25,579 nt of DNA. Source: an uncultured Prevotellaceae bacterium. Its GTDB lineage: Bacteria; Bacteroidota; Bacteroidia; Bacteroidales; Bacteroidaceae. Under the pieces are notes generated by a model. It saw only the letters and a program-made list of their open reading frames with translations. It made no database searches and had not been told where the DNA came from. This document shows, piece by piece, positions 20,579-25,558 of the stretch (position 1 is its first letter; every line of letters starts with the position of its first letter). A program made the translations under genes and the position numbers. The stretch covers positions 1 through 25,579 of the forward strand of contig CAMZHP010000010.1 in the NCBI GenBank assembly GCA_947306845.1. Direction: 5' to 3'.

Positions 20579-20613
20579 ATGTTGTTGCTTGCCGCGGATG
20601 CACCGCATATTGT

Positions 20614-21045
20614 TTATGCCACATTCTCTGCCATGTTGAACTTCAGGGAGACGAAGTTGGAGAGGGTGGTTTCATAGCCATTGGCAGTCTTCTCAATCTT
20701 GACGATGGGGACACGGGGATAGTAGTCGTTCATGAATGCAGCTACGTTGCAGGGAACCATAGTGGCAGGGACAGCCCCCATTTTGCAATCAATTTTTTCC
20801 CAATTGCCATTCTCGCTGAACTCAATGAGTATGCCGTCGTTAAGGACGGTCACAAACGATGTACCTTTGAGCGAGGCCTTCTTGTTTGCGAAAGCGATAC
20901 TCCTGCCAGGGAAGTTGCGCTGCACGAAGTATTTGACTGACTTGGGAAGATCCTCTGCGAAGAATTTCTTCTCACTCTTTTTCTCTGCTGCGGGTCGGGT
21001 CATCCTGTGGATGAAGTTGGACACCATTGAAATAGCACTTTTCAT
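20614..21045 (-). CDS. PepSY-like (PF11396-type) protein without signal peptide
   Basis: The 143-residue protein holds two copies of the PepSY-like half-domain. The first covers about residues 30-82 (DLPKSVKYFVQRNFPGRSI to GILIEFSENGNWEKID). The second covers about 92-138 (VPCNVAAFMNDYYPRVPIV to VSLKFN). This is the layout of the putative beta-lactamase-inhibitor-like, PepSY-like family of Bacteroidetes. Family members are usually exported; here the first 30 residues (MKSAISMVSNFIHRM then a K/E-rich stretch) have no hydrophobic core, so it may be cytoplasmic or the signal was lost. The gene converges with the S41 gene. Upstream are a perfect -7 element and a direct repeat shared with the neighbouring 46-residue gene, which suggests joint control. 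Confidence 0.8.
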   Translation of the reverse strand: MKSAISMVSNFIHRMTRPAAEKKSEKKFFAEDLPKSVKYFVQRNFPGRSIAFANKKASLKGTSFVTVLNDGILIEFSENGNWEKIDCKMGAVPATMVPCNVAAFMNDYYPRVPIVKIEKTANGYETTLSNFVSLKFNMAENVA

Positions 21046-21079
21046 AATCTTATCTTTTTTGTTTTTTTGTTTTCTGATG

Positions 21080-21087
21080 CAAAGATA
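21080..21087 (-). promoter_or_regulatory. -7 element of the PepSY-like gene
   Basis: On the minus strand this reads TATCTTTG, a perfect -7 box, 34 bases before the ATG at 21045. No TTTG occurs 19-21 bases upstream. A promoter with a good -7 but no -33 often needs an activator, which fits the direct repeat 53 bases further upstream. Confidence 0.6.
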
Positions 21088-21140
21088 AGATGGTTGACAG
21101 CATGAATGGTTATTTTTTGGTGTTTTTCTCTCTTACTCGT

Positions 21141-21168
21141 TGCGACACGGCGTGCCAGTTGCGACAAA
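21141..21168 (-). promoter_or_regulatory. Direct-repeat regulatory site upstream of the PepSY-like gene
   Basis: On the minus strand: TTTGTCGCA, 11 bases, GTGTCGCA, then ACGAGTAAGAG and a GAAAAA tract. The two TGTCGCA words are 19 bases apart. The same arrangement with the same spacing occurs at 21566-21593. The distance from the site to the -7 element is 53 bases. No DNA-binding protein is proven; the adjacent AraC-type regulator is the obvious candidate because that family often binds direct repeats. Confidence 0.65.
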
Positions 21169-21265
21169 CAGGCTCCACATATAGTAAATATGTCGCGTGA
21201 CGGTTCATAAAAGTCAAATTTTCAATTCACACCCCTGTTTTCACCAAAAAGAAAAAAGGTTGGAA

Positions 21266-21295
21266 AAAGCCGGAGAAACCTCAGTCCTCCGGCTT
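21266..21295 (-). terminator. Rho-independent terminator of the 46-residue gene
   Basis: A 9-bp perfect stem, AAGCCGGAG (21267-21275) with CTCCGGCTT (21287-21295), and an 11-base loop. On the minus strand the stem runs into TTTTTCC and then a second T-rich stretch. It lies 40 bases after the stop codon at 21336 and there is no other minus-strand gene for it to serve. Confidence 0.8.
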
Positions 21296-21335
21296 AAATA
21301 CTCTTTCCTAACCTAACCAAAAACTACTTGTCATT

Positions 21336-21476
21336 CTACATCACATACGGATTATAGAATCGCGAGCAATAGATGGAATGGTTGGTGTACTTGCTGATTT
21401 CTTCGAAACCTGCCACGAAACTTCTTACCGCTTTGCGGAAGAATTTCACTGTCCTCATTATGCTCATTGTTTTCAT
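21336..21476 (-). CDS. Small basic protein of 46 residues, unknown function
   Basis: The frame begins ATGAAAACAATGAGC and encodes MKTMSIMRTVKFFRKAVRSF, continuing VAGFEEISKYTNHSIYCSRF and ending YNPYVM. The N-terminal half looks like an amphipathic basic helix (KFFRKAVRSFVAGFEEI); the second half is rich in Tyr, Asn and Ser with one Cys. I do not recognise a family. It is accepted as a gene because it forms a complete transcription unit: a consensus promoter at 21506-21537, a leader of about 25 bases, this frame, and a terminator 40 bases after the stop. Its upstream direct repeat is shared with the PepSY-like gene. Longer frames starting upstream (to 21600 or 21770) would cross the promoter and are rejected. 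Membrane association or a regulatory micro-protein are open options. Confidence 0.65.
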   Translation of the reverse strand: MKTMSIMRTVKFFRKAVRSFVAGFEEISKYTNHSIYCSRFYNPYVM

Positions 21477-21505
21477 TGTCGTATGTTTTATTTGTCTTGA
21501 CAATG

Positions 21506-21537
21506 CAAAAGTAGGGCAGTTTCTCTCCCATGGCAAA
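21506..21537 (-). promoter_or_regulatory. Bacteroidetes-type promoter of the 46-residue gene
   Basis: On the minus strand TTTG (21534-21537), exactly 20 bases, TACTTTTG (21506-21513): a full consensus match. Initiation near 21500 leaves a leader of about 25 bases before the ATG at 21476. Confidence 0.8.
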
Positions 21538-21565
21538 GTATTCCTCTTTTTTCGCCTTTTCTCGA

Positions 21566-21593
21566 TGCGACACACCCGCATATCTGCGACAAA
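21566..21593 (-). promoter_or_regulatory. Direct-repeat regulatory site upstream of the 46-residue gene
   Basis: On the minus strand: TTTGTCGCA, 11 bases, GTGTCGCA, then TCGAGAAAAGG and a GAAAAA tract, the same layout as at 21141-21168. It lies 52 bases upstream of the -7 element. A single related half-site (TGTCGCA followed by AACGAG) faces the other way at 21616-21628. Confidence 0.65.
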
Positions 21594-21625
21594 ACGGCAA
21601 TGACTCCCCAACATCTGTCGCAAAC

Positions 21626-21641
21626 GAGAAGTGAGAGGTGA
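21626..21641. repeat. Short relic of the CCTCTCA-type heptamer array
   Basis: On the minus strand this reads TCACCTCTCACTTCTC, two to three units of the 7-bp word seen at 14266-14300. It begins two bases after the AraC-type stop codon. Confidence 0.5.
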
Positions 21642-21643
21642 CT

Positions 21644-22204
21644 CTATTGGTCGCGGGTAAGCATTCTTCGGTAGTCGACAGGCGTCATGCCCACCACCTC
21701 CTGCACGCGGCGCTGGAGCGTGCGCACATTGCCGATGCCCGACTCCTCTGCTACGGCGGCGATGCTCCACTGCGGTTTGTCACGAAGCATTCGCAGAGCG
21801 GCAAGCACGCGCAGGTTGTCGATGTATGCCTCCGGAGTGCGGTGGATGGTCTGGTGACGGAACAGCCGGTTGAGCCGTTCCTGACTCACGCCCAGTAGCT
21901 GTGCCAGTGCCGCTGCGTCGAAGTCTGCCTTCAGGTGCGGCCTGTCCTGCTCCACATGCAGTTCGATGAGTGCCATGAGCTGCGAGTCATCCTTCAGGTC
22001 GGCATTGCGTTGCCGCTCAATGTTGCCATTGAGCAATTCGCGTGCCACGTCGGTGCGGCGTCGCATCTCCAAGTCTTCCTCTAGCCGCTCAGAGAGGTCG
22101 AGGTTGCGGCTGACGAGTCGGATCAGTTCATTCTTGAGTTGCTCCACTTCTTTGCGGAGTGCGGCATTTTCCTCTTGCAGCCGCGATATCTCTTCCTTGG
22201 TCAT
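21644..22204 (-). CDS. AraC-family regulator with N-terminal coiled coil
   Basis: The 186-residue protein begins with a clear coiled coil (about 3-48: ISRLQEENAALRKEVEQLKNEL and onward), then a short helical linker. A C-terminal AraC-type double helix-turn-helix (about 85-183) contains LAQLLGVSQERLNRLFRHQ and IAAVAEESGIGNVRTLQRRVQEVVGMTPVDYRR. No ligand-binding cupin or receiver domain is present, so control must come through the coiled coil or a partner protein. Its ATG overlaps the stop of the STAS gene (ATGA), which implies translational coupling and roughly equal amounts of the two products. I infer that the STAS/kinase pair controls this factor, where a sigma factor would stand in a classic partner-switching system. 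A direct-repeat motif just beyond its 3' end may be its target. Confidence 0.88.
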   Translation of the reverse strand: MTKEEISRLQEENAALRKEVEQLKNELIRLVSRNLDLSERLEEDLEMRRRTDVARELLNGNIERQRNADLKDDSQLMALIELHVEQDRPHLKADFDAAALAQLLGVSQERLNRLFRHQTIHRTPEAYIDNLRVLAALRMLRDKPQWSIAAVAEESGIGNVRTLQRRVQEVVGMTPVDYRRMLTRDQ

Positions 22205-22503
22205 TGGAAATTAAATAAGTTGGTGAATCCTATTTCATCAAAAACTTGGCGGAGGTCATCACTCATTCCGGAGATGGTGACCTTGCTGCCATGCTTGTTG
22301 GCATTCTTGAGCACTGCGAGAAAGATACGCAGTCCGCTGGAGGAGATATACTCCAACTTGGAGCATTCAAGGATGATGTCATGACCGGCACAGTCATAAA
22401 GTACCTGCATGTCGCGCCCAGCCTGAGTGGAGGCACTTGTGTCAAGCCTACCCTCAAGGTGCATCACATAGTTGTTGTTTTCTTCTTTGAATGTTGTAAT
22501 CAT
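22201..22503 (-). CDS. STAS-domain anti-sigma-factor antagonist-like protein
   Basis: The 100-residue protein is a stand-alone STAS domain like SpoIIAA and RsbV. It shows the N-terminal strand YVMHLEGRLDTSAS, the ILECSKLEYISSSGLRIFLAVLK phosphorylation region and a C-terminal GMSDDLRQVFDEIGFTNLF helix. Aligned by eye with SpoIIAA, Ser55 is the expected phosphorylation site; the preceding Asp of the usual D-S-S-G motif is Ser here. In partner switching the antagonist is phosphorylated by an anti-sigma kinase and reactivated by a PP2C phosphatase; both domains are in the protein encoded just upstream. The stop overlaps the start of the AraC-type gene. No promoter is visible in the 106-base gap upstream, so it is probably read from the operon promoter near 25540. 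Confidence 0.9.
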   Translation of the reverse strand: MITTFKEENNNYVMHLEGRLDTSASTQAGRDMQVLYDCAGHDIILECSKLEYISSSGLRIFLAVLKNANKHGSKVTISGMSDDLRQVFDEIGFTNLFNFQ

Positions 22504-22586
22504 ATATCTTGGATTTGGAATTTAAAAGTTTATATATATAGATGAATCATCTTCAATTATCTATTTCCTGTTTTAGAATTTTTAAT

Positions 22587-22614
22587 CTTCAATTTTCAAT
22601 TTTCAATCTTCAAT
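22587..22614. repeat. 7-bp tandem array, ATTGAAG type
   Basis: Four 7-bp units (plus strand CTTCAAT, TTTCAAT, TTTCAAT, CTTCAAT). On the minus strand the array begins at the stop codon of the sensor/phosphatase/kinase gene, whose TGA lies in the first unit. The gap to the STAS gene (22504-22586) holds further AT-rich degenerate copies but no promoter. Confidence 0.75.
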
Positions 22615-24490
22615 CTAGGTGTTCAATTCTTTTCCGCAGGGTGAGGATATTGCGGCCTTCATGGCGCTCATAGTTAATACTGTCCATGTACTTGCGGATG
22701 AGATGGATACCGAGTCCGCCGATGCCTCGTTCCTCAGCAGGCAGTGTGATGTCCACTTCTTCCTTGGTGGTCGGATCGAACGGTTGTCCGCTGTCGGTGA
22801 TGACAAACTTGACTCTCTCTGAGTTTGCCTCCGCCTCGATGGTGACATCCCCCTCCAGTCCTGCTGGATAGGCATAGTTCATCACATTGACTACCGCCTC
22901 CTCCAGGGCGAGATTAATCTGCATGGTGGTAGTGTCGGAGAATCCTACCTCCTCACACACCTTTTCTACCATTTCTGCAAGTCGTGGTATCTCATTGACA
23001 TCGCAAGGCAGGGTGAGTGAGTGATACAGGTAGGCGTCGGATGACTGTCGGATATAGTGTATGGCGAGCATCGTGAGATCATCGCTCTGCTCGGTGTCGC
23101 CCACGAAGTTGTTGACTGCCTCTGTCATCTGCTCAATGAGCTGCCGTGGCGTGTCTGCCTTCAGAAGAGCCTCCATGCGCTCAGTGCCAAACTGATTGTG
23201 TACGGCATCCTCTGCTTCTGTCAGTCCGTCAGTGTAGAGGAAGATGATGGCACCCGATGGAATCAACGCATCCTGTGCAGAGTATCTGTAATTGTTGAAT
23301 GCTCCGACAGGAAGGTTGGGCTCGACGGGAAGCGGTTGGTTGCCCACATACGGAGCCTTGTGCCCCGCGTTGGAGTAGTGCAACCGTCCGGTGGGCAGGT
23401 CGAGGACACCTACGAACATGGTGATGAACATGTTGTAGTCGTTGTCTTGTGCCATCGTGTCGTTCATCGCTGTGATGATACGGTCAGGAGCCGACTCTCT
23501 CGCTATCAGCATACGGAATGAGGCGCGTGCTACTGCCATCACCAGTGCGGCAGGCACACCTTTTCCTGAAACGTCACCGATGCAGAAAAAGAGTTTCTCG
23601 TCACGGATGGAGAAGTCACAGAAATCACCGCCCACTTCCCGGGCTGGTGTCAGGAAGGCATGGAGCTCGATGTCATCGCGCATGGCAAATGACGGCGACA
23701 CCTTGGGCTTCATCGCCTCCTGGATGCCTTGGGCGACGCTCAATTCTCCCGCGATGCGCTCCTTCTCTTTATTCACGTCATGCAGACGGCGGATGCCGCG
23801 CACATAGCGGTGGATAATGAACACCAAAATACCCAGTCCGAGGATTTGTAAGAGGATGACGGGCAACAGGGAGCGTTTCTGGTTGTCATAGAGTTGCGAC
23901 GCAAGAGCCGACAATTCCTTCATCGGCACATCGGCACCCAGCACAGCCACCGTTTCTCCCTGGGCATTGCGCACTGCCCGTGAGAAGGTGCACATCAGCA
24001 CCACCTTGTAGTTGCTCATATAAGGCTCACTCCAGAAACCGTCGCTGTCGATGGCCCGTGAATACCAAGAGCGCTGGGTATAGTCGAAGTCGATGACCTG
24101 CTCTGTGAGGCCGCCCTGCTCCTCCTCCTTATAAATATATATTCCGTCGTGATGACCGTCAGCCCCCACCAAGCGGCAATAGTCCACTCCCACCACCTGC
24201 TGCTCCTTGCCGAGCATCTCACGGATGAGCATGCGCAGGGAGTCTTTATCTTGCTTGGCGGTGAGTCGTTCTATGTCGGGCAGTATCTGAGCCATCGTCT
24301 CCTCCACATCTTTCTTCAACTCCGCAGTGCGGTTGGTCGCACTGAGGTCACGCTGCGCCATTTCGGTCATCTGCATGGTGATCCCTCTCCGTGTTGAGAA
24401 ATACTGCACGGCGGTGATCAATTCCAGCAACAATGCAGCGATGATGAGCACAGCGATGCTTCGAAGTTGATTCTTTCGGGAGGTCTTCAT
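22610..24490 (-). CDS. Membrane sensor with PP2C (SpoIIE/RsbU) phosphatase and RsbW-like kinase domains
   Basis: From the ATG at 24490 the protein has 626 residues. A membrane helix (about 10-30), an extracytoplasmic sensor region (about 31-205, Cache-like with WYSRAIDSDGFWSEPY) and a second helix (about 205-228) precede a short signalling helix. The SpoIIE/RsbU-type PP2C domain (about 265-475) keeps the metal-binding acidic residues: Asp306 in GDVSGKG, Asp421 in YTDGLTEA, and Asp470 and Asp471 in SDDLTML. The last 140 residues form a GHKL ATPase of the RsbW/SpoIIAB type, with NLALEEAVVNVMNYAYP, ITDSGQPFDP and RGIGGLGIHLI. The single chain thus holds the sensor, the phosphatase that activates a STAS antagonist and the opposing kinase. 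It starts 11 bases after the nuclease-like gene and is followed by the STAS gene. A TTG at 24505 is a less likely start. Confidence 0.92.
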   Translation of the reverse strand: MKTSRKNQLRSIAVLIIAALLLELITAVQYFSTRRGITMQMTEMAQRDLSATNRTAELKKDVEETMAQILPDIERLTAKQDKDSLRMLIREMLGKEQQVVGVDYCRLVGADGHHDGIYIYKEEEQGGLTEQVIDFDYTQRSWYSRAIDSDGFWSEPYMSNYKVVLMCTFSRAVRNAQGETVAVLGADVPMKELSALASQLYDNQKRSLLPVILLQILGLGILVFIIHRYVRGIRRLHDVNKEKERIAGELSVAQGIQEAMKPKVSPSFAMRDDIELHAFLTPAREVGGDFCDFSIRDEKLFFCIGDVSGKGVPAALVMAVARASFRMLIARESAPDRIITAMNDTMAQDNDYNMFITMFVGVLDLPTGRLHYSNAGHKAPYVGNQPLPVEPNLPVGAFNNYRYSAQDALIPSGAIIFLYTDGLTEAEDAVHNQFGTERMEALLKADTPRQLIEQMTEAVNNFVGDTEQSDDLTMLAIHYIRQSSDAYLYHSLTLPCDVNEIPRLAEMVEKVCEEVGFSDTTTMQINLALEEAVVNVMNYAYPAGLEGDVTIEAEANSERVKFVITDSGQPFDPTTKEEVDITLPAEERGIGGLGIHLIRKYMDSINYERHEGRNILTLRKRIEHLD

Positions 24491-24501
24491 TCTATTAAAT
24501 T

Positions 24502-25509
24502 TCAAAGGCTGTTGATGACATCTTCTGACAGGCCTGTTGCTTTTGAGATTTGTGCAAGTTCCATGCCCATTTCCTTCAGTTGTAAGGCTATCTCCCGTTG
24601 TTTCTTTGCTTCACCTTCTGCGAGGCCTTCTGCGAGACCCTCAGCATGTCCCTCGGCGAGTCCCTCAGCATGTCCTTCAGCGAGTCCCTCAGCACGTCCC
24701 TCGGCGAGTCCCTCGGCATGTCCCTCAGCACGTCCCTCGGCACGCCCCTCAGCACGCCCCTCAGCATGTCCTTTGGCATGTCCCTCGGCACGCCCTTCTT
24801 CTGCTGCTCTTTCTATGATGGCAAGGTTGTCCCGATAAACCTTGATACTTTCTTCATATCTCTCTCGTTCAGCTGGGGTAAGAGCTTCCACCTCACATAT
24901 CTCTGCCAACCTCTGGAATGCAGCATATTGTGCAGCCCAGGGCATTCTATCCAGTATCTCCATATTCTTCAATACATAAATCCATTTCTCGAAAAAACTC
25001 TCACACTCATCATACTCCTTGTTGAACAGAGGAAGCTGTAGAAAAATCATACGCATTTTGTCGCTGAACATCTCCTTGGTCTTCATGTTCAGAATTCCCA
25101 CGTCAGTACGGAACTCATCCTTAAAAGGTGCCTCACTGAAATTCATGAAGAATACGCCATAAACAGCGTTGAGGGCATATCTCTTCCCTTCACTTCCCCT
25201 TTTGCTTTGACCGACAATTGCTTTCGAAAGGTATAGCAACGCGCGGTCTTTGAAATACGCCTGTGCGCGGTTCTGCATCTCCACCACGATGCGTTCACCC
25301 GTGTCTGTCGTGCAGTAAATGTCGTAAATCAGTCCGCGGTCGATATCGGTCTCGGGCAACTGCTCCTTGTCAAGGAACTGCAGGTCGGTTATAATCCTTT
25401 CACCCTCGAGCAGGGTGTTGAGGAACGACAATAGAAGGTCTTTTGATACTTCTTGACCAAAGATCCGCTTGAAACCCACGTCTGTGAAAGGATTGATAAA
25501 CTTTCCCAT
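24502..25509 (-). CDS. Rpn/PDDEXK-type nuclease (putative transposase family) with tetrapeptide repeats
   Basis: From the ATG at 25509 the protein has 335 residues and opens with the family signature INPFTDVGFKRIFG. The PD-(D/E)XK core is seen as Asp63 (IYDIYCTT), then Glu77 and Gln79 (VVEMQNRAQ), with the E-x-Q variant of E-x-K usual in this family, and RALLYLSKAI after it. Relatives called recombination-promoting nuclease (Rpn) or PDDEXK family transposase cut DNA, but most chromosomal copies have no known host role. A linker of 15 tetrapeptides of the form R/H/L-A-E-G (residues 240-299) leads to a short C-terminal helical tail ending ATGLSEDVINSL. The gene is first in the operon with the sensor kinase, STAS and AraC-type genes and has a consensus promoter at its 5' end. 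An earlier ATG at 25557 would overlap that promoter. Confidence 0.85.
   Translation of the reverse strand: MGKFINPFTDVGFKRIFGQEVSKDLLLSFLNTLLEGERIITDLQFLDKEQLPETDIDRGLIYDIYCTTDTGERIVVEMQNRAQAYFKDRALLYLSKAIVGQSKRGSEGKRYALNAVYGVFFMNFSEAPFKDEFRTDVGILNMKTKEMFSDKMRMIFLQLPLFNKEYDECESFFEKWIYVLKNMEILDRMPWAAQYAAFQRLAEICEVEALTPAERERYEESIKVYRDNLAIIERAAEEGRAEGHAKGHAEGRAEGRAEGRAEGHAEGLAEGRAEGLAEGHAEGLAEGHAEGLAEGLAEGEAKKQREIALQLKEMGMELAQISKATGLSEDVINSL
24613..24792 (-). repeat. Fifteen 12-bp tandem repeats coding x-A-E-G
   Basis: An uninterrupted 180-base tract of 12-bp units codes for R/H/L-A-E-G fifteen times (one unit is HAKG). Units differ mainly in the first codon and in silent positions. The length is a multiple of three, so unit gain or loss by slippage keeps the frame. 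Related nucleases often carry similar E-G-x-x-x-G tracts. Confidence 0.9.
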
Positions 25510-25527
25510 ATTTCTTTGCTTTTTCTG

Positions 25528-25558
25528 CAAAATTAGCGATAATATGTAAATAAACAAA
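25528..25558 (-). promoter_or_regulatory. Bacteroidetes-type promoter of the nuclease-sensor-STAS-AraC operon
   Basis: On the minus strand TTTG (25555-25558), 19 bases, TAATTTTG (25528-25535), a full consensus match. Initiation near 25521 gives a leader of about 12 bases before the ATG at 25509. No other promoter is seen before any of the four genes. Confidence 0.75.

Follow-up and report, generated by a model that had tools for sequence, protein, structure and literature searches.

Two neighbouring promoters in the stretch of DNA analysed here (25,579 nucleotides from an uncultured Prevotellaceae bacterium of the rumen, Prevotella-like in character, hereafter the window) are preceded by the same direct repeat, in the same orientation and at nearly the same distance. 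This raises the question of whether one regulator acts at both promoters and, if so, which. The original prediction named a shared regulator and took the product of a nearby AraC-type gene as the obvious candidate. On the sequence evidence assembled below, we consider it very probable that the sites are a three-half-site operator, that an AraC-type activator is the most likely factor acting there, and that this activator is probably set by a partner switch composed of a SpoIIE/RsbW-like-kinase sensor and a STAS protein.

Two sites in one window

The repeat TGTCGCA-N12-TGTCGCA is present without mismatch at 21141-21166 and 21566-21591, both on the minus strand, and the CGAG..AA and GAAAAA stretches reported to follow it are found in the sequence after the sites. 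The -7 boxes TATCTTTG (21080..21087, minus strand) and TACTTTTG (21506..21513, minus strand) start 53 and 52 nt past the respective repeats, as claimed; the second site occupies the stretch 51-78 bp past the stop of the AraC-type gene. When up to three mismatches were allowed, the direct-repeat pattern matched the window five times against 2.93 expected, a count reached by 19 of 100 shuffles; two of these matches are exact and the other three carry three mismatches each. The total number of direct repeats in the window is unremarkable, and the exactness of the two sites is the point.

The description of the sites as simple direct repeats was correct for the repeats and incomplete for the site, in that a third, inverted half-site had been overlooked. 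It reads TGTCGC on the plus strand at 21191-21196 and 21616-21621, at equal offset from both repeats. Because both copies carry this third half-site, the window's direct repeat forms the proximal portion of an operator with three half-sites. Operator 1 (21141..21196, minus strand) reads GCGACATATT-N18-TTTGTCGCA-N12-TGTCGCA, with its distal inverted half-site GCGACATATT at 21187..21196 on the same strand and no mismatch to the three-part pattern given below. It lies upstream of the gene for a PepSY_like protein of 143 aa (20614..21045, minus strand; Pfam PF11396, E 1.6e-19), a predicted target. Operator 2 (21566..21621, minus strand) reads GCGACAGATG-N18-TTTGTCGCA-N12-TGTCGCA, with its distal inverted half-site GCGACAGATG at 21612..21621 (minus strand) and one mismatch; it lies between the AraC-type gene and a 46-residue ORF (21336..21476, minus strand), which is likewise a predicted target. 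Homologues of this ORF with 78% and 73% identity follow the AraC gene in loci L001 and L002, respectively, and tblastn found none in the remaining 78 of the 80 AraC loci. The three-part scan of the window returned these two sites and no others; no operator precedes the SpoIIE operon of the window.

In the order of minus-strand transcription, the genes are a PDDEXK_2 gene, the gene of a Cache-SpoIIE-HATPase sensor, the STAS gene, the AraC-type gene, the 46-residue ORF and the PepSY_like gene. The PDDEXK_2 transposase-family ORF (24502-25557), just upstream of the SpoIIE gene, contains a long in-frame tract of GHAEG/GRAEG-type repeats near its C terminus.

Operator anatomy and copy number

The full pattern is GCGACANATT-N18-TTTGTCGCA-N12-TGTCGCA, which spans 56 bp with 25 defined bases and consists of an inverted distal half-site followed by two tandem half-sites with a 19-bp period. 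For an alignment we used 79 sites with an exact direct repeat, in loci that had been retrieved either with the AraC protein or with the direct repeat itself. The inverted half-site GCGACA-N-ATT lies thirty bases upstream, with its GAC core kept in 74-75 of the 79 sites; A-tracts lie at about +40, +50 and +69, and a TAnnTTTG box begins 50-54 nt past the site in 76. The -33 region is weakly conserved in this alignment. PMC7366714 gives TAnnTTTG as the -7 consensus of the primary sigma factor in Bacteroidetes. Similar phasing was found in a 97-site set to which loci retrieved with the three-part pattern had also contributed, where the box lies at 50-54 nt in 94 sites and CGACA occupies the distal place in 85. 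Among 117 distinct three-part sites (up to four mismatches, some loci having been fetched with the three-part pattern itself), the -7 box lies 50-54 nt downstream in 114, at 52 nt in 79 and at 53 nt in 28.

Operators of this kind occur in multiple copies that are in phase with promoters. A motif scan beyond the window, as proposed with the original prediction, gave 80 exact direct repeats across 12 AraC-bearing genomes, some of which were picked since their AraC locus already showed a site; 11 of the 12 contained the repeat, and a reversed control pattern gave no match. The three-part pattern, with up to three mismatches, was present in 44 of 50 AraC-bearing genomes in a scan that drew on 50 of the 80 AraC loci, and its reversed form had no match there. 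Copy numbers reached 23 in G001, 26 in G002 and 15 in G009 (Prevotella sp. ne3005).

Candidate regulator and rival readings

The distribution of the operator follows that of the AraC-type gene. In two genome sets, both of which include the centre genome G001, chosen for having the operator and the AraC gene, and in both of which AraC relatives were called at E 1e-25, the three-part operator was found in 7 of 7 AraC-positive genomes against 3 of 294 others (family set, 301 genomes) and in 27 of 31 against 7 of 89 (genus set, 120 genomes), with Fisher p-values of 3e-12 and 2e-16 that ignore shared ancestry and are inflated by it. The exact direct repeat alone was present in 7 of 7 AraC-positive family genomes and 7 of the 294 others. 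Five of the 31 genus positives have weaker AraC matches only (best E 7e-57 to 7e-47), and three of these five contain a single operator with three mismatches; when the five are recounted as AraC-negative, by a threshold set afterwards, the proportions become 24/26 versus 10/94. An operator follows the AraC gene within 900 bp in 13 of the 71 loci with enough sequence. That a single regulator is shared by both window sites, as originally predicted, is strongly supported by the copy number and promoter phasing of the operator, and co-occurrence and adjacency support the AraC-type protein as the probable regulator. The operator, its phasing, this co-occurrence and the gene order are the parts of our reading that the sequences support.

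Exceptions occur in both directions. No operator at three mismatches was detected in 6 of the 50 and 4 of the 31 AraC genomes, with G334 counted both times. An in-frame stop interrupts two AraC genes: that of G183, a partial match counted among the seven family positives, in a genome with one operator, and that of G314, in a genome with none. Conversely, ten genomes of the family and genus sets have an operator and no AraC relative at E 1e-25, with one copy each in G043 and G077 and eight in G112 (family set), and one each in G353, G383, G448 and G449, two each in G391 and G422 and seven in G355 (genus set). At E 1e-9, no AraC relative was found in G043, G077, G112, G353 and G448, and only distant matches (best 2e-22) were found in G355, G383, G391, G422 and G449. 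In loci L192-L196, which come from five of the ten genomes, no AraC-like ORF was seen by eye beside the STAS gene. Assembly gaps could account for these operator-positive, AraC-negative genomes.

The candidate regulator is a protein of 186 aa (21644..22204, minus strand) in which HTH_18 (E 2.9e-16, 60 bits against a cut-off of 33.6) and HTH_AraC (42.4 against 26.6) identify an AraC-type DNA-binding domain of the double helix-turn-helix kind. No NCBIfam equivalog reaches its cut-off for this protein, and in sequence it is weakly related to the PDB chains for AdpA, SoxS and AraC (E 9e-5 to 5e-4). In the closest locus found, L001 from the MAG Prevotella sp. Tb.RUG.168, the AraC-type protein is 99% identical to that of the window. 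An AlphaFold2 model (mean pLDDT 81.4, pTM 0.55) has one long N-terminal helix (residues 3-69) and a seven-helix AraC-type domain. We found no N-terminal small-molecule-binding domain, a feature that many but not all AraC/XylS regulators have, residues 3-69 being one predicted helix with no Pfam domain above cut-off. Because the model combines a single long helix with a seven-helix domain, it is reasonable to suppose that the protein oligomerizes through this helix, and on the half-sites it may act in dimeric or higher oligomeric form. We found no support for the AraC gene being of mobile or viral origin: 14 viral_contigs stretches matched a pattern and none encoded a relative, and the window DNA from 20600 to 22700 had no match among plasmids.

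Several other readings of the sites have to be weighed against an operator bound by the AraC-type protein. Two copies in one window could coincide by chance, and in the 301 family genomes, 14 of which contain the exact direct repeat, the reversed control occurs in three, with one copy each, so that chance can produce a direct repeat that stands alone. The contrast between 80 exact copies in the 12 genomes and none for the control, together with the absence of any match to the reversed three-part pattern in the 50-, 301- and 120-genome sets, nevertheless rejects chance or coding background as the source of the sites, and we judge chance repeats to be excluded by these counts for practical purposes. 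Alternatively, the sites could be a dispersed repeat or a mobile promoter cassette without a dedicated regulator, as some G009 copies (the TGTCGCAAATC group) are near-identical beyond the motif. The spacers differ from site to site, however, whereas the half-sites, A-tracts and promoter words are kept, and the downstream ORFs belong to many families; we regard a cassette of this kind as highly improbable.

The remaining readings accept the operator and differ in its factor or in the sign of control. A different, unlinked regulator that travels with the AraC/SpoIIE/STAS genes could bind it, in keeping with the ten genomes in which operators persist and a close AraC relative is missing, with seven or eight copies in two of these genomes. 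The co-occurrence within the genus favours the AraC-type protein over such a factor, as do the operators right after the AraC gene in 13 of the 71 loci, and gaps in the genomes could explain the exceptions, so that we consider an unlinked regulator unlikely. AraC-type proteins can both activate and repress, and the sign of regulation is not given by sequence alone; the protein could accordingly bind the operator as a repressor, or in both capacities. We think this quite unlikely, since the half-sites precede the promoter core, the proximal one ending 50-54 nt ahead of the -7 box at 114 of the 117 sites, an activator-like placement, and since the -33 region is weakly conserved. The same geometry, with the operator upstream of the promoter core and the end of the proximal half-site mostly 52-53 nt away from the -7 box, suggests the role of an activator.

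The preferred reading, that of the AraC-type protein as activator, extends to the genes encoded ahead of it. The STAS gene (22201..22503, minus strand) overlaps the AraC-type gene by 4 nt, and its anti-sigma-antagonist-like product matches STAS at E 1.1e-14 and TIGR00377 with 53.3 bits, just below the cut-off of 53.45. The sensor gene (22610..24505, minus strand) encodes PDC/Cache, SpoIIE phosphatase and RsbW-like kinase domains in one protein, according to Pfam (MCP-like_PDC_1, E 1.3e-13; SpoIIE, 1.2e-44; HATPase_c_2, 1.4e-26, above cut-off); its matches to RsbW models, at 3.6e-14 and 2.1e-13, are below their equivalog cut-offs. A SpoIIE/PP2C phosphatase, an RsbW/SpoIIAB-like kinase and a STAS protein with serine at the phosphorylation position, three components of partner switches, are present. 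Phosphorylation of the STAS-motif serine is known from SpoIIAA and RsbV. Same-strand SpoIIE and STAS genes lie upstream of the AraC gene in 62 of the 80 loci and were not found beside it in 18, isolate ne3005 among them. The STAS gene runs 4 nt into the AraC gene in 17 of 65 loci, and the STAS motif is ISSSGLR in 62 of the 65, ITSSGMR in two and neither in one. From this gene order, we propose the AraC-type protein as the module's output partner.

In the mechanism that we envisage, the three-half-site operator would bring one transcription factor, most likely the adjacent AraC-type protein acting as an activator, to a fixed place upstream of TAnnTTTG-type Bacteroidota promoters. Control of this protein's activity would probably lie with the STAS protein and with the sensor that combines SpoIIE phosphatase and RsbW-like kinase domains, and the controlling step may be phosphorylation of STAS. 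Such a partner switch would have an AraC-type regulator as its output in place of a sigma factor. Binding, activation rather than repression, and the partner switch are the parts that we infer. A fuller version, in which the Cache sensor with its phosphatase and kinase sets STAS phosphorylation and thereby controls the AraC-type activator through its N-terminal helix, and in which the resulting three-half-site regulon comprises type VI secretion, exported proteases and PepSY-like and small proteins, is one that we hold with evenly balanced confidence. A second SpoIIE gene has its own operator in G001 (L117, where a STAS gene follows) and in G002 (L125 and L106), which suggests feedback; its product has 765 aa in L117 and L125.

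Predicted regulon and known systems

Downstream of the operators we scanned 96 ORFs, drawn from the 117 sites after omission of sites with no box, no ORF or an ORF start more than 260 nt away and of duplicates; ORFs were chosen by a mechanical rule, and some of them are unlikely to be genes. They include 20 PepSY_like, six TssD and five clostripain-type Peptidase_C11 proteins, and most of the others match no family. Among the predicted targets are small ORFs, PepSY-like proteins, clostripain peptidases, the type VI tube protein TssD and the second SpoIIE gene. In L023 (Prevotella sp. ne3005), an operator and a TssD gene come after the AraC gene and, one ORF on, a gene for a Phage_base_V-domain protein as in VgrG. 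In L074, an operator precedes a TssD cluster similar to that of L023, with a STAS gene on the opposite strand and an AraC gene further on.

The HTH_18 domain and the tandem direct half-sites with a distal half-site upstream of a promoter resemble AraC/XylS regulators, for which araI1-araI2 with the distal araO2 of E. coli AraC and the sites of SoxS and RhaR serve as comparison. The system differs from these in the single long N-terminal helix predicted where a ligand-binding domain would be, in the inverted orientation and fixed 30-bp offset of the distal half-site and in the Bacteroidota promoter, and its repeat period is 19 bp, whereas that of the E. coli AraC half-sites is 21 bp. As in the partner switches RsbU/RsbV/RsbW, SpoIIAA/SpoIIAB/SpoIIE and SiaABCD, a SpoIIE phosphatase, an RsbW-like kinase domain and a STAS protein are encoded together. 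Unlike in those systems, the phosphatase and kinase domains reside in one sensor, and the next gene is AraC-type instead of a gene for a sigma factor or, as in the Sia system, a diguanylate cyclase.

TssD tube genes, which here appear to be regulated targets, are shared with Bacteroidales type VI loci. A survey of such loci names TetR/AcrR-family regulators near them, and the word AraC is absent from its main text (PMC4714493). In contrast to TetR/AcrR-linked loci, the linked regulator in L023 and L074 is AraC-type and the operator precedes a TssD-like gene. Searches of a literature collection with few subscription papers and no bioRxiv preprints, largely at the level of titles and abstract openings, returned no description of the operator or of the SpoIIE/STAS/AraC wiring; the parts are known, the wiring is apparently new and the operator is apparently undescribed. 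To our knowledge, few regulons have been defined in rumen Prevotella, for which the 56-bp operator is predictive of a regulon whose targets can be read from genome sequence. Through this system, a partner-switching sensor may be connected with type VI secretion and with exported proteins. The operator claim could be tested in Prevotella sp. ne3005 (L023), whose record is not labelled a MAG and which we regard as a cultured isolate.

Among the ORFs past operators, short ones of 46-65 residues are found repeatedly, in L082, L098, L127, L134, L135 and L151 and at 21336-21476 of the window; their tails read, for example, ISPVYPQYVES or FYNPYVM. Starts resembling double-glycine leaders occur in operator-downstream small ORFs of L146 (3262-3393, EEMEHVNGG) and L179 (1230-1364, EELEQVNGG), which are possible exported peptides. 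In G009, the operators of L140, L143, L144, L146, L148 and L150 form a near-identical sub-group (TGTCGCAAATC...), possibly a repeated promoter segment.
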